Origin: a virus
DNA length: 27,574 bases
Virus record (IMG/VR): IMGVR_UViG_3300018080_000507
Location: 1 to 27,574 of that record
Direction: 5' to 3' (one strand)
Below the pieces are notes generated by a model, which did no database searches, had not been told where the DNA came from, and saw only the letters and a program-made list of their open reading frames with translations. Shown piece by piece: positions 17,524-27,574 of this stretch. The position numbers and the translations under genes were made by a program. The number at the start of each line of letters is the position of its first letter. The first letter of the stretch is position 1.

Positions 17524-17556
17524 ATTTCACAAAACGGCCCCATCTGTTCAAAAATA

Positions 17557-17592
17557 GCCCGATTATTTCACGAAAAGCCCGATAATTTCACG
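17557..17592 (+). repeat. Two 16-bp direct repeats upstream of P1
   Basis: GCCCGATTATTTCACG (17557-17572) and GCCCGATAATTTCACG (17577-17592), one mismatch, 20 bp apart (about two helix turns). A partial third copy, AATTTCAC, lies at 17523-17530. Candidate protein-binding sites. Between here and the promoter, 17593-17667 shows only A/T tracts (17637-17657) that may act as an UP element. Confidence 0.55.
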
Positions 17593-17667: not shown

Positions 17668-17705
17668 TTGACAAACCCTTAAAATGGGCCTATATTCTAT
17701 ATAGG
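17668..17705 (+). promoter_or_regulatory. Promoter P1 with palindromic operator
   Basis: TTGACA (17668-17673), 17-bp spacer, TATATT (17691-17696); predicted start near 17703. A perfect inverted repeat CCTATAT-TCT-ATATAGG (17689-17705) covers the -10 box and start site, an ideal position for a dimeric repressor. The same module recurs at P2. Confidence 0.85.
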
Positions 17706-17732
17706 ATGAACAAAACAAAAGGAGACAAGACG
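17704..17732 (+). promoter_or_regulatory. P1 mRNA leader (shared with P2)
   Basis: The leader begins GGATGAACAAAAC and contains the Shine-Dalgarno AAAAGGAG for ATG 17733. It is identical to the P2 leader over its first 24 nt apart from one extra A before GGAG. An AUG at position +4 (17706) is in frame with ATG 17733. The leader is complementary to the loops of the terminators at 19296 and 26791. Confidence 0.75.
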
Positions 17733-19495: not shown

Positions 19496-19523
19496 TTCAA
19501 AGCAAGCCCAAATTGTGCGACCT

Positions 19524-19664
19524 ATGGGACCGATGGAACCTGTGAAACCGATGGAAACGATGGAAACGATGGAAACCGCCAAGTTTTCCACATATTCACA
19601 AGTTATCCACAAAAAACCAATGGAAATCATGAAACATGTGAAACCTATGAAACCAATGGAAACC
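19524..19664 (+). other. Origin-like region: 9-bp iterons flanking DnaA boxes
   Basis: Six tandem 9-bp units of consensus RTGRAAMCN occupy 19524-19577 and five occupy 19620-19664 (for example ATGGAAACG, GTGAAACCG, ATGGAAACC). Between them lie TTTTCCACA (19584-19592), a near-box ATATTCACA (19592-19600) and a perfect DnaA box TTATCCACA (19603-19611). A/T-rich sequence (about 19665-19695) follows. This matches iteron-type replication origins that recruit host DnaA. Promoter P2 starts 40 bp downstream. Confidence 0.65.
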
Positions 19665-19704: not shown

Positions 19705-19741
19705 TTGACAGACACCGAATAAAGGACTATATTCTATATAG
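19705..19741 (+). promoter_or_regulatory. Promoter P2 with operator, twin of P1
   Basis: TTGACA (19705-19710), 17-bp spacer, TATATT (19728-19733), predicted start near 19740. Inverted repeat CTATAT-TCT-ATATAG (19727-19741) covers the -10 and start. The leader GGATGAACAAAACAAAGGAG (19741-19760) follows. The spacer sequence differs from P1 while the -10/operator/leader part is conserved. Confidence 0.85.
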
Positions 19742-19769
19742 GATGAACAAAACAAAGGAGACCGAAACG

Positions 19770-22494: not shown

Positions 22495-23504
22495 CCAACG
22501 GCGGGACCCCGGACCCGGGATCGATTGCCAGCGAGATCCGGGCCGACCTTGTAACCTACAAGGCCGAGAAGCGGAGGAAATGGCGGCCCAAGAGCAACGC
22601 CGCCAGCCAACTCGGCCATCCTTGCGCCCTTGAAACCGGGCGCTATTTGTACATCCGGCGCATCACGCCGGAGGAAAATCTTGCCTTGCACCCCGTGGCC
22701 AAGCAGTTTTTATTTGATGACGGCAACACCCACGAGGAAGCGGTCATCGCGGACTTGAAGGCGGCCGGCCATCAGGTCGACCGCGGCCAGGCCAGCTACA
22801 CCTGGGACGCCTACCAGATCAGCGGCAAGATTGACGGATTCATTTACACGAGCGCCGGCGCCTTCCCATTGGAGGCCAAGGCCATGAGCCCCTCCCTTTT
22901 CCGCGCCGCGGCCAAGGCCGCCATCAACGGCGTCTTGACATGGGACCGGATAAAGGCCACGCGCAACGACTGGATCGCCAAATACGCGGTCCAGCTTAAC
23001 ACCTACCTGCTGATGACCGGCCGGCCCCTTGGAATTTTCGCTTTCAAGGACAAGGAAAGCGGGGATATTGCCATTTACGGCTGGGCCCTGGACTACGACC
23101 TGGGCGAGACCGCGATCAAGCGCGCCGAAGAAATCAACGCGGCGATGGCCGGCACGGGCCCGGAACCCAAGCATTGCACGCGGCCCGACCTTTGCGGCCG
23201 ATGCGAGATCTGCCACATTTGCAAGCCGCCCTTGGTTCAATTCGGGGAAACGCGCGAGATCATGGACAACCCCGACCTCGAGGCCAAGCTCATCCGCCTT
23301 GAAGAATTGGAGCCGGCCTACAAGGAATATAAAACCTTGGACGAACAGATCAAGGCCGCGGTCCGCGGCAAAATCGGCGTCCTTGGGGATTTTGAAATTG
23401 ACGGGGCATGGAGCGAAAGCCCGGCCCAGGTCATCCCCGAGCACACGGAACCACCGCGCCGGCAATGGCGCCGGAAAATTACCAAATGGAGGAAAACAGC
23501 ATGA
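22491..23504 (+). CDS. Cas4/RecB-like PD-(D/E)XK exonuclease
   Basis: 337 residues, ATGA-coupled to the HTH gene. Nuclease motifs: His81/Glu82 (THEEAV), Asp115 (SGKIDG), Glu128-Ala-Lys130 (PLEAK) and Gln168...Tyr172 (YAVQLNTYL), the order of the RecB nuclease family. Cys45 (GHPC) and a C-terminal cluster Cys229, 235, 238, 241 and 244 could hold a 4Fe-4S cluster as in Cas4 and AddB. It likely resects phage DNA ends and works with the next protein as a two-component recombination system. Confidence 0.78.
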   Translation: MTNGGTPDPGSIASEIRADLVTYKAEKRRKWRPKSNAASQLGHPCALETGRYLYIRRITPEENLALHPVAKQFLFDDGNTHEEAVIADLKAAGHQVDRGQASYTWDAYQISGKIDGFIYTSAGAFPLEAKAMSPSLFRAAAKAAINGVLTWDRIKATRNDWIAKYAVQLNTYLLMTGRPLGIFAFKDKESGDIAIYGWALDYDLGETAIKRAEEINAAMAGTGPEPKHCTRPDLCGRCEICHICKPPLVQFGETREIMDNPDLEAKLIRLEELEPAYKEYKTLDEQIKAAVRGKIGVLGDFEIDGAWSESPAQVIPEHTEPPRRQWRRKITKWRKTA

Positions 23505-24583
23505 ACTACGACGACGATCCGGCCATCGTGCCGGTCAACGAAAAAGAAAACATTGTCCAGGCGGGCAACATCGCCGAAGCCCAACTCGTGCCGGCCGGGC
23601 CTTTGCAGACCCAGGCCAGCCTGCAGGCCTTTGACGAATACATGGCCGTCGTAAAGCACCGGGCAGAAAAGGTCATGGAATTGAGGGAATACCTTATTTC
23701 AAAAACCACGCACCTGGACTGGGACAACCTCGACGGAAAACCCTACTTGAACATTGCCGGCGCCAACAAGGCCATGAAGGTCGGCATCATCAACATGGAC
23801 GGCCTGCGCGGGGGCAAGGACTGGAGCGAGGACGAAAAACGGGAGCGCTACTACTATTACAAATACATCGCCCGCTTTTTCATTCCCAACCTCGGCGACA
23901 GCTTGTGGGAAATGGGCCGGTGTTCACAGCGGGATTTACTTTTCGGAACCCACAAGGTCCCCAAGCTCGGCAAGGACGGCAAGCCCGAGACCTACAAGGA
24001 CAGCGGAAAAGTTATCATGGTCCGCGCCTTCAAACCGGCCAGCGAGGTCGACGAAGGCAACATCGACAAGAGCGCCATGACCAACCTGCGCGTCCGCGGC
24101 GTGCGCGCAATTTCAGGCCTTTCCAGCGTGACCTGGGAAGAATTGGAGCGCTTGGCCGGAATTACCCCGGACATGATCGAGGGCGGCACCAACTACAGCG
24201 ACAGCGCCGGCGGGGAGGACGCGGTCACCAAGGCCGAGATGCGCCAGCTTTTCAACTTGCTCGAGAAACACAAGGTCGACGCCAAAGAATTTCAAGCCAA
24301 ATTCGGGATCGGCATGATCAAGGAACTCAAGCAGAAGGACTTGGGCAAGGCCAAGGTCTGGATCAGCAAGCAGGGCCAGACCGCGACAACGGCCAGGGCC
24401 ACCGACAACAGCATCATCGCGCCGGCCGCGGCCAAGCGCCTGCGCGAGGGCATGGCCGCCGTGGGCATCAGCGACGAAACCTACAAGAAGGAAATCGGCG
24501 CCCTGCCCGAGGAGACCAAGAAGGTCGACTTTGCCCGCGCCGAGGCCTTCATCAACAAGATCGCGGACGGGGGCGCGAATTGA
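23501..24583 (+). CDS. Putative ssDNA-annealing/recombination protein
   Basis: 360 residues; TGGAGGAAAACAGC precedes ATG. Key stretch HLDWDNLDGKPYLNIAGANK (71-90), then RYYYYKYIARFFIP and LWEMGRCSQRDLLFG (136-149), then AMTNLRVRGVRAISGL; the C-terminal ~130 residues are helical with KAEMRQLFNLLEKHKVDAKE FQAKFG, like C-terminal tails of phage recombinases that bind partners. Annealing function is inferred from position behind a RecB-like exonuclease; I do not place it firmly in RecT, Erf, Rad52 or Sak4 families. Confidence 0.5.
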   Translation: MNYDDDPAIVPVNEKENIVQAGNIAEAQLVPAGPLQTQASLQAFDEYMAVVKHRAEKVMELREYLISKTTHLDWDNLDGKPYLNIAGANKAMKVGIINMDGLRGGKDWSEDEKRERYYYYKYIARFFIPNLGDSLWEMGRCSQRDLLFGTHKVPKLGKDGKPETYKDSGKVIMVRAFKPASEVDEGNIDKSAMTNLRVRGVRAISGLSSVTWEELERLAGITPDMIEGGTNYSDSAGGEDAVTKAEMRQLFNLLEKHKVDAKEFQAKFGIGMIKELKQKDLGKAKVWISKQGQTATTARATDNSIIAPAAAKRLREGMAAVGISDETYKKEIGALPEETKKVDFARAEAFINKIADGGAN

Positions 24584-26435: not shown

Positions 26436-26670
26436 TTGCGGACATTCGCACCTGGTCCACGGAACCAGGCCCGCGGCCAATGAGCCCAACAACCCCACGG
26501 ATGGCCCAATATTGGAATGCCGGGCCCGACCGCCAAAATGCCTTGGGCAAATAGACCCCAACACCAAATGGGCCGAGCCTTTCACCGCGATCTGGCCCAC
26601 GGTACGCGTGCGCACCCGCGCCTGCGGCCAATGTTGGGATCCGACAGCCCGGGCAGAAAAAAGGACTTGA
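26392..26670 (+). CDS. Small cysteine-rich protein, last gene of the P2/P3 operon
   Basis: 92 residues; ATGGAGGACAGAC precedes ATG. KKCGNCGHSHLVHG, CRARPPKC and CGQCWDP give six cysteines plus histidines, enough for one or two zinc sites. Its TGA lies within the -35 region of P4. Unknown role, possibly nucleic-acid binding. Confidence 0.65.
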   Translation: MPETNDHPSGKKCGNCGHSHLVHGTRPAANEPNNPTDGPILECRARPPKCLGQIDPNTKWAEPFTAIWPTVRVRTRACGQCWDPTARAEKRT

Positions 26671-26702
26671 CTGGGCAGGCACGCCCGCCCATACTACGAA
26701 AA
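26667..26702 (+). promoter_or_regulatory. Promoter P4
   Basis: TTGACT (26667-26672), 17-bp spacer, CATACT (26690-26695); predicted start near 26702. The first transcribed bases resemble those of P3 (GAAAACA then GGTCAGGACAA). No ribosome site or credible gene follows before the terminator at 26791-26872. Confidence 0.6.
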
Positions 26703-26872
26703 CATGGTCAGGACAAACCAGAGCAACCCAACCTTTCGGCAAGCGCCGCCGTCTCATGTCCTGACCCGGGGGCGCACCATTGCCGGAAACGCGGCCCCGG
26801 GACCGGAACGAAGGAGCGCCATCGGCCTCCTTTGTTTTGTTCATCCAACCCGGTCCCGGGCCGCCTTTTTTT
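26702..26872 (+). ncRNA. Predicted regulatory RNA with antisense to the early leaders
   Basis: About 170 nt from P4 to an intrinsic terminator. A 5' hairpin pairs GGTCAGGACA (26706-26715) with TGTCCTGACC (26757-26766). Bases 26757-26768 are also a 12-nt exact complement of the P3 leader (22183-22194). Bases 26827-26846, in the terminator loop, are a 20-nt exact complement of the P2 leader (19741-19760), including its Shine-Dalgarno, and match the P1 leader with one bulged A. An inner hairpin AAGGAG/CTCCTT (26811-26832) could hide the anti-SD part until pairing starts at GTTCATCC. The idea that it blocks early translation or causes early termination is inference. It could also be an attenuated leader of the initiator gene downstream. 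Confidence 0.6.
26791..26872 (+). terminator. Terminator of the P4 RNA, large anti-leader loop
   Basis: GCGGCCC-C-GGGACCGG (26791-26806) pairs with CCGGTCCCGGGCCGC (26850-26864): 15 bp with a single bulged C, followed by seven T (26866-26872). The 43-nt loop is unusually long and contains the antisense segment. It also ends readthrough from the P2/P3 operon. Confidence 0.85.
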
Positions 26873-26902
26873 CCGGACCTGGCAACGGAGGAGCGGCGGA
26901 AA

Positions 26903-27574
26903 TTGTACTCGCAGATTGAAACGACCTTGTGGGGCGAGACCTGGTGGCAGGAAACTAGCCAGGGCGCAAAATTCCTTTACTTGTATCTTCGGACCAACGA
27001 CCACCGGCACCTGTCCGGCTTGTACGAGATCACCGACCGGACAGCCCGCTTTGAGACCGACATGGAGGCCGTGGCCTACGAGAGAGCCCTGGCCGAGCTT
27101 GTAGCCCTGGGCCAGGTAAAGCGGGACGGGGCCCTGGTATGGATCGTCGAGGACTTGAAGCGCCGGCCGGAAGCCACCCTTTCACCCAAAATCGTCCGGG
27201 CCGTGGCCAAACAGGTCGAGCGGCACCGTGGGAGCCCCCTCGCGGCCGAATTGTTGCGGAAATATTCAAAAAGGTTAAAGGGTATCCATACCCTACCGAT
27301 AACCCATGGTAAGGGTAAGGATACCGTAGGGATACCGTCCATTGATGATGAAGATGAAGGAATAATTAAGAAAGTAAAACCAATACAATCATCAATGAAC
27401 CCTACCGCTACCCCTTCGATACCCTATCCAAACCCTACGGAAACCGGCGACGAATTCCCGGCCCTTGACGGGCCCTGGGCCGGCATACCGGCCTGGATGG
27501 TCAGCACCAACCCCGAGGCCGAGCCCGGGGCCTTGCAAAAGGCTTTTCCCAGGTACAACTACACCGCCCCCAGC
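26903..27574 (+). CDS. Replication initiator, O-like (3' partial)
   Basis: Open from TTG 26903 to the window edge (224 codons); GGAGGAG (26887-26893) supports this start, and the frame is open upstream without an ATG. The first ~115 residues look like the winged-helix domain of phage replisome organisers (LYSQIETTLWGETWWQETSQ GAKFLYLYL, HLSGLYEITDRTARFE, ALAELVALGQVKRDGALVWI VED). A low-GC linker full of repeats follows (27280-27440), as in lambda O where the origin lies inside the gene. The C-terminal part continues outside the window. It should bind origin repeats and load the helicase. Confidence 0.68.
   Translation, partial: MYSQIETTLWGETWWQETSQGAKFLYLYLRTNDHRHLSGLYEITDRTARFETDMEAVAYERALAELVALGQVKRDGALVWIVEDLKRRPEATLSPKIVRAVAKQVERHRGSPLAAELLRKYSKRLKGIHTLPITHGKGKDTVGIPSIDDEDEGIIKKVKPIQSSMNPTATPSIPYPNPTETGDEFPALDGPWAGIPAWMVSTNPEAEPGALQKAFPRYNYTAPS
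27280..27440 (+). repeat. Repeat-rich, A/T-rich segment inside the initiator gene (candidate origin)
   Basis: Contains palindrome GGGTATCCATACCC (27280-27293), direct repeats GGATACCGT (27319-27327 and 27330-27338), and ACCCTA words at 27290, 27399, 27421 and 27432, around an A/T-rich stretch (27341-27395). The local base composition departs strongly from the rest of the window. Confidence 0.55.

Follow-up and report, generated by a model that had tools for sequence, protein, structure and literature searches.

The DNA examined here (the window) is the whole of a 27,574-base IMG/VR record, which ends inside the gene of a putative replication initiator. The gene is an open frame on the + strand from a TTG start codon at position 26903 to position 27574, and continues past the record end; 224 codons are present. 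The N-terminal part of the deduced protein (residues 2–110) matched the phrog_1701 profile "DnaD-like helicase loader" (E 3.3e-8), tblastn related the protein to ORF39 of Geobacillus virus E2 (E 3e-9), and its matches to replisome organisers of E2 and other phages showed 22–30% identity. The Pfam search gave no family at E ≤ 1, hence no RepA_N sequence match. The segment 26903–27283 encodes a predicted N-terminal DNA-binding domain, for which AlphaFold2 gave a winged-helix model with a pLDDT of 87.7. The best four rows of a VIA comparison with this model were all RepA_N initiators (5kbj, 4pql, 4pt7 and 4pta; Z 8.1–7.6, rmsd 2.7, 83 aligned), a Z of about 8 not being decisive according to the tool's own note; the Foldseek E values for RepA_N structures were weak (0.06–0.09), and a search of the PDB by sequence, with an alignment as query, returned chance-level matches only. 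From profile and model, the gene is assigned to the DnaD-like helicase-loader family with a possibly RepA_N-like N-terminal fold. The preliminary description had likened the gene to lambda O; homology to lambda O was rejected, no lambda O being among the Pfam and phrog matches listed, and the likeness to lambda is one of layout only. No close relative of the phage was found through the initiator, the Cas4-type exonuclease gene, the leader sequence described below or the neighbour gene at 23498–24580, which had one weak phage match (27% identity).

Within the gene, a repeat element spans about 27277–27446, and it is larger and more ordered than first described. Repeat block I (27277–27342) consists of six 11-bp units starting at 27277, 27288, 27299, 27310, 27321 and 27332; it contains the near-palindrome GGTATCCATACC at 27281–27292, with the two central bases as the sole exception to perfect symmetry, and inverted copies. 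Repeat block II (27396–27446) consists of four 11-bp units, starting at 27396, 27407, 27418 and 27429, and a partial fifth, and includes at 27418 one perfect copy, GATACCCTATC, of a word shared by the initiator family (see below). The blocks are separated by a 53-bp A/T-rich spacer (27343–27395) with 26.4% G+C, as compared with 61.5% for the record. The palindrome, the direct repeats and the four ACCCTA words around an A/T-rich stretch which had been reported for this region are all present, ordered as two 11-bp-phased blocks.

The four ACCCTA words start at 27290, 27399, 27421 and 27432. The word is not rare in the window (8 observed, 5.16 expected), and four of the eight copies lie within 150 bases. 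With the protein sequence preserved, four copies were reached in 9 of 5000 trials when the codons of the gene were permuted, and in none of 5000 when codons were drawn from the window usage. Since these copies stand in codon frames 0, 1, 2 and 1, a protein repeat cannot explain them; likewise the 11-bp units step through all codon frames, 11 not being a multiple of 3. The lag-11 self-match was 0.53 in block I, a value reached by none of 2000 codon permutations, and 0.63 in block II, reached by 13 of 2000 (36 of 2000 with the best lag chosen between 5 and 22). Repeated k-mers in a 180-nt frame peaked at 27263, and this peak was equalled in 0 of 1000 codon permutations for k = 6, 7 and 8 and, when codons were drawn from the window usage, in 0, 0 and 8 per 1000, respectively. 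The signal was weaker for repeated 9-mers (33 of 1000 permutations), and a 7-mer/120-nt repeat test of the gene gave p = 0.023. The third-position G+C content in 90-nt frames fell from 0.77–0.93 (26948–27262) to 0.27–0.40 (27263–27442), and within the initiator gene codon choice strayed far from the habit of the record solely at the repeat element. The repeats inside the initiator gene exceed what the protein constrains. The element holds only three matches to the family word with up to two mismatches, and four more lie elsewhere in the window; the units of the window are therefore degenerate copies.

The spacer is both A/T-rich and triplet-phased, having A at every third base on the + strand (T-n-n-T on the − strand), with five NAN triplets at 27344–27358 and eight NNA triplets at 27371–27394. 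Such tracts were scored with +1 per A at a phased position and −2 otherwise. The tract of the window is short (score 8); this score was reached by none of 200 codon permutations and was the best of the 18 window ORFs scored, the next best of the 17 others being 7. A DnaA-trio- or T-n-n-T-like arrangement, that is, fixed A/T triplets beside repeat boxes, is present in the window as a sequence pattern.

Relatives of the initiator were collected from two protein-based scans (160 loci) and from a phage collection (5 loci). Genes were found in the 165 loci (166 with the window), and the 163 genes of at least 150 codons were grouped into 30 clusters at 60% identity. In this family a word close to GATACSSTATC recurs at 11-bp intervals in the DNA that encodes the linker following the DNA-binding domain; the linker-coding DNA of E2 and others reads, for example, GATACCCTATC...CATACGGTATCGATACGGTATC. 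With up to two mismatches the word is present in 22 of the 30 clusters, at a density of 11.7 per kb in codons 120–139 and 7.2 per kb in codons 140–159, as compared with 0.28 per kb in the flanks. In a fixed-word test, at most 2 of 200 codon permutations were as good as the natural sequence in seven clusters, and 23 of 30 missed p ≤ 0.01; an unbiased repeat test was passed at this level by 13 clusters and missed by 17. Examples with no repeat excess in the unbiased test are L004, L087, L096, L119, L121, L123 and the large, near-identical L036/L049 group. In family genes from bacterial genomes, the word was found behind the DNA-binding domain in 41 of 70 loci (9.0 vs. 0.28 per kb) and was absent from 29; this set overlaps the IMG/VR set, several contigs of identical length being the same prophages, and its independence is partial. 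In the complete genomes of phages E2 and vB_EalM-137, the word clusters in the initiator gene only, with scattered single words elsewhere.

The repeat pattern is pronounced in some members of the family and faint or absent in the others. Homologues which keep the protein and lack the repeats had been named as evidence against an origin at this place. Such a lack is not general, the word being carried by 44 of 65 matches of a protein-blind scan (see below) and by the 41 genome loci; yet some homologues are free of repeats, and the rule of embedded repeats therefore covers part of the family only. A DnaB_2 domain was recognised in four of ten relatives scanned (L007, L013, L089 and L036) and was not found in the other six. 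A smaller second peak of the word was noticed around codons 55–66 in L091, L096, L119, L124 and L131; it comprises seven matches in codons 40–59, within the DNA that encodes the DNA-binding domain, and may be protein-driven.

The protein-blind scan searched all IMG/VR contigs, with proteins ignored, for a 22-bp sequence made of two tandem copies of the word. Sixty-five loci were obtained, of which 44 lie inside a family gene, with a median of 14.5 residues between the DNA-binding domain and the word, and nine within 100 nt behind a family ORF. Among the remainder, one locus lies 5.8 kb away from such an ORF and 11 have no family ORF in the available DNA, some of them because of the contig end. 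Part of the 44 in-gene loci are contigs also contained in the protein-based sets. In L215 (5132–5290), one of a similar group, the DNA-binding domain forms a short gene of its own, with the repeats and a purine-rich tract located after its stop codon; the DNA element thus stands without a linker protein. Repeats just behind a stand-alone ORF for the DNA-binding domain were also observed in L174, L182, L186, L190, L204, L213, L220 and L226. Judging from L215, which was read in detail, these loci may represent a split initiator with a non-coding candidate origin. Similar intergenic arrays of the family word were seen in L210 (6228–6271), L177 and L222. The L210 array is 5.8 kb from the initiator ORF, which itself has no word at up to one mismatch, and is a candidate detached or second origin.

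In many relatives A (T in some clades) occupies every third base of a tract adjoining the repeats. The tract score was at least 14 in 15 of 29 relative clusters, as compared with none of 64 other ORFs of the same loci, and below 12 in 13 of the 29. In the bacterial genomes, scores of at least 12 were found in 47 of 70 family genes vs. 2 of 180 control ORFs, and 14 of the 70 genes had neither word nor tract. In the complete genomes of E2 and vB_EalM-137 the top tract lies directly behind the word cluster, E2 having another tract of 13 elsewhere. When the phase falls on codon position 3, none of 200 codon shuffles matched the tract in L004, L005, L088, L131 and the extra members L013 and L089; when it falls on codon position 2 (runs of E, K, Q and N), the protein fixes the tract and the shuffle test is silent. 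In L088, a locus of 75% G+C, 19 consecutive codons end in A (log10 P −20.5 given the codon usage of L088 itself). The G+C content of the tract is 53% in L088 and 47–48% in L005 and L089, in the last two above the locus mean. A plain A/T-rich melting zone as the sole reason for the tract was rejected for the relatives, in some of which the G+C content of the tract is near 50%. A link between tract and DnaB_2 was also rejected, L088, L096, L121 and L123 having a tract with no DnaB_2 found. No significant triplet tract was detected in lambda O (score 6, reached by 125 of 300 permutations), TP901-1 rep or A118 ORF49, three known or likely origins of other types; the tract is therefore not general to such linkers.

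In B. subtilis, the binding sites of DnaD are paired T-n-n-T motifs located on the complementary strand to the DnaA-trios (PMC10201434). Read on the complementary strand, A-n-n-A becomes T-n-n-T. A simple DnaD reading is opposed by the occurrence of tracts where DnaB_2 was not found and of the phase on either strand. We tentatively suggest, with the odds somewhat against it, that the triplet tract (about 15–30 triplets beside 11-bp iterons), shared by a large family of phage origins, allows strand-specific recognition of the opened strand in the manner of the DnaA-trio or the T-n-n-T element of bacterial chromosomes. The coding linker would then bend to the tract, as with the A-ending codons of L088, and the window would represent a high-G+C member whose weak tract is flanked by iterons on either side.

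The layout of the window recalls several known systems. In the lambda record four iterons are annotated inside gene O, and they fall in its linker-coding part. The window and the lambda origin both have iterons inside the initiator gene, but they differ in protein family, in the iteron length of 18 bp in lambda and in the lack of a triplet tract there, so that the comparison with lambda-type origins which had been proposed holds for layout only. ORF39 of Geobacillus virus E2 has a homologous N-terminal domain, the same word, the 11-bp step and a triplet tract in the linker-coding part; the window protein differs in being about 28% identical, and its gene in having blocks on both sides of the tract and more degenerate units. 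RepA_N initiators have a winged-helix N-terminal domain, a central linker and a C-terminal part varying with the host, and their binding boxes are located centrally in the rep gene itself (PMC5703833); their iterons are described as semi-palindromes converging on a poly-A tract (PMC7145576). On these descriptions, the window resembles RepA_N plasmid replicons of the pSK41 type in the candidate mid-gene boxes and the linker segment and possibly in the predicted winged-helix N-terminal fold, and differs from them in its 11-bp phased units, in the lack of a Pfam match and in belonging to a phage, not a plasmid. In Bacillus phage SPP1, oriL comprises direct repeats and an A/T-rich part inside the initiator gene (gp38), and its direct repeats, bound by one initiator, are shared with oriR (PMC6316719). 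Compared by description, the window resembles SPP1 in having direct repeats and an A/T-rich part in the initiator gene, and differs in that no second region with like repeats was seen in the 27.6 kb of this incomplete record.

The sequence shows that there are repeats, that they keep an 11-bp phase and do not depend on the reading frame, and that distant relatives have the same layout. On these sequence data the element at 27277–27446 is most probably (about 85%) the phage's own replication origin, located inside the linker-coding part of the initiator gene; the earlier proposal of an origin within this gene is supported by repeats beyond the protein constraint and by the same layout in distant relatives. 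The N-terminal winged-helix domain would bind adjacent 11-bp units along a single face of the helix, as suggested by the one-turn spacing and the RepA_N relatives. The adjoining A/T-rich, triplet-phased spacer would then melt, with one strand being held, and the C-terminal part, which lies beyond the contig end here and is a DnaB_2 domain in some relatives, would recruit the helicase or its loader.

Initiator sites inside the initiator's own gene could also control expression, and binding alone would fit both an origin and an operator by which the initiator regulates its own or a downstream gene with no replication start. The blocks, however, lie about 375–540 bp inside the gene and a promoter-like site is found upstream at 26667, the A/T-rich tract between the repeat blocks is an origin feature, and in 9 of the 65 blind-scan loci the word comes after the end of the family ORF, not before it; an operator is accordingly very unlikely. 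Chance repeats in a low-complexity linker under weak selection, or in a recently gained A/T-rich patch, would agree with the richness of the family linkers in E, K, Q and D and with the codon bias lost in the patch. This explanation is strongly disfavoured, and we consider it extremely improbable, since the repeats exceed protein-preserving shuffles, occupy all three codon frames, are found again at the corresponding position in distant families and, in nine loci, come after the family ORF has ended.

Until now, origins inside initiator genes have been known from single model phages and plasmids. An origin embedded in the initiator gene, as favoured here, is thus known in kind; the open-access literature searched yielded no description, for these phages, of the 11-bp word, of the triplet tract or of the layout combining them. 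Across many phages and prophages, most of them from Bacillota and occasional ones from other groups, one repeat word and one triplet rule mark a likely origin, and such likely origins become readable from DNA sequence alone. If the tract were a strand-recognition element, phage initiation would be linked to the bacterial chromosome unwinding system.

The preliminary description regarded the element as a candidate second origin, next to a region at 19.5 kb (19520–19664), with a possible division of labour, for example between lytic growth and maintenance. The latter region has 40% G+C and 9-bp repeats around three DnaA boxes, defined by the DnaA-box consensus, within 28 nt (19584–19611), a cluster matched by none of 5000 first-order simulations, and it may be a DnaA-type site. 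The region directly precedes a strong promoter-like site (19705–19733) and may be its control region. It shares no 10-mer with 27277–27446 and has no family word at up to two mismatches; the two regions share five 8-mers, vs. a mean of 1.1 in random stretches, mostly A-rich words. No second cluster of the family word occurs in the 27.6 kb of the incomplete record. That a phage may have two origins is illustrated by SPP1 (PMC6316719), and the L210 array at a distance from its word-free initiator ORF points the same way; but the SPP1 origins share repeats, whereas the 19.5-kb region has none in common with the 27.3-kb element, and E2 and vB_EalM-137 have one word cluster each. The data do not support a second origin or a division of labour, and two origins, as an addition to the embedded-origin explanation, appear rather unlikely for this phage.

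Among the relatives, L087 (2986–3612), the best match to the DNA-binding domain of the window (39%), has an initiator-type DNA-binding domain fused to an HNH nuclease (PF01844, E 1.2e-13), and the same fusion was recognised in L118 and L120 by reading the sequence. These fusions recall Odn, the origin-directed nuclease by which phage ICP1 cuts the origin of a satellite (PMC8263062); their nuclease is HNH, while that of Odn is GIY-YIG.

Near-identical copies of a promoter and leader were noticed at 17668–17728 and 19705–19762, each with TTGACA-17-TATATT followed by the shared leader and preceded by an A/T-rich repeat stretch (17547–17590, 20-bp unit, and 19520–19664, 9-bp unit, respectively). 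Other IMG/VR contigs yielded no match to the exact leader sequence. Immediately before the initiator gene, positions 26667–26875 on the + strand comprise a promoter-like site, a long strong hairpin (z −5.7) and a T-run, a possible small RNA or leader. Within the hairpin, 20 nt are exactly complementary, in antiparallel orientation, to the leader and ribosome site at 19741–19760 and, with one base inserted, to the site at 17704. The predicted duplexes have energies of −40.5 and −34.2 kcal/mol, whereas the median for 38 start regions is −19.0. The hairpin RNA is possibly a phage antisense RNA blocking translation of two operons.
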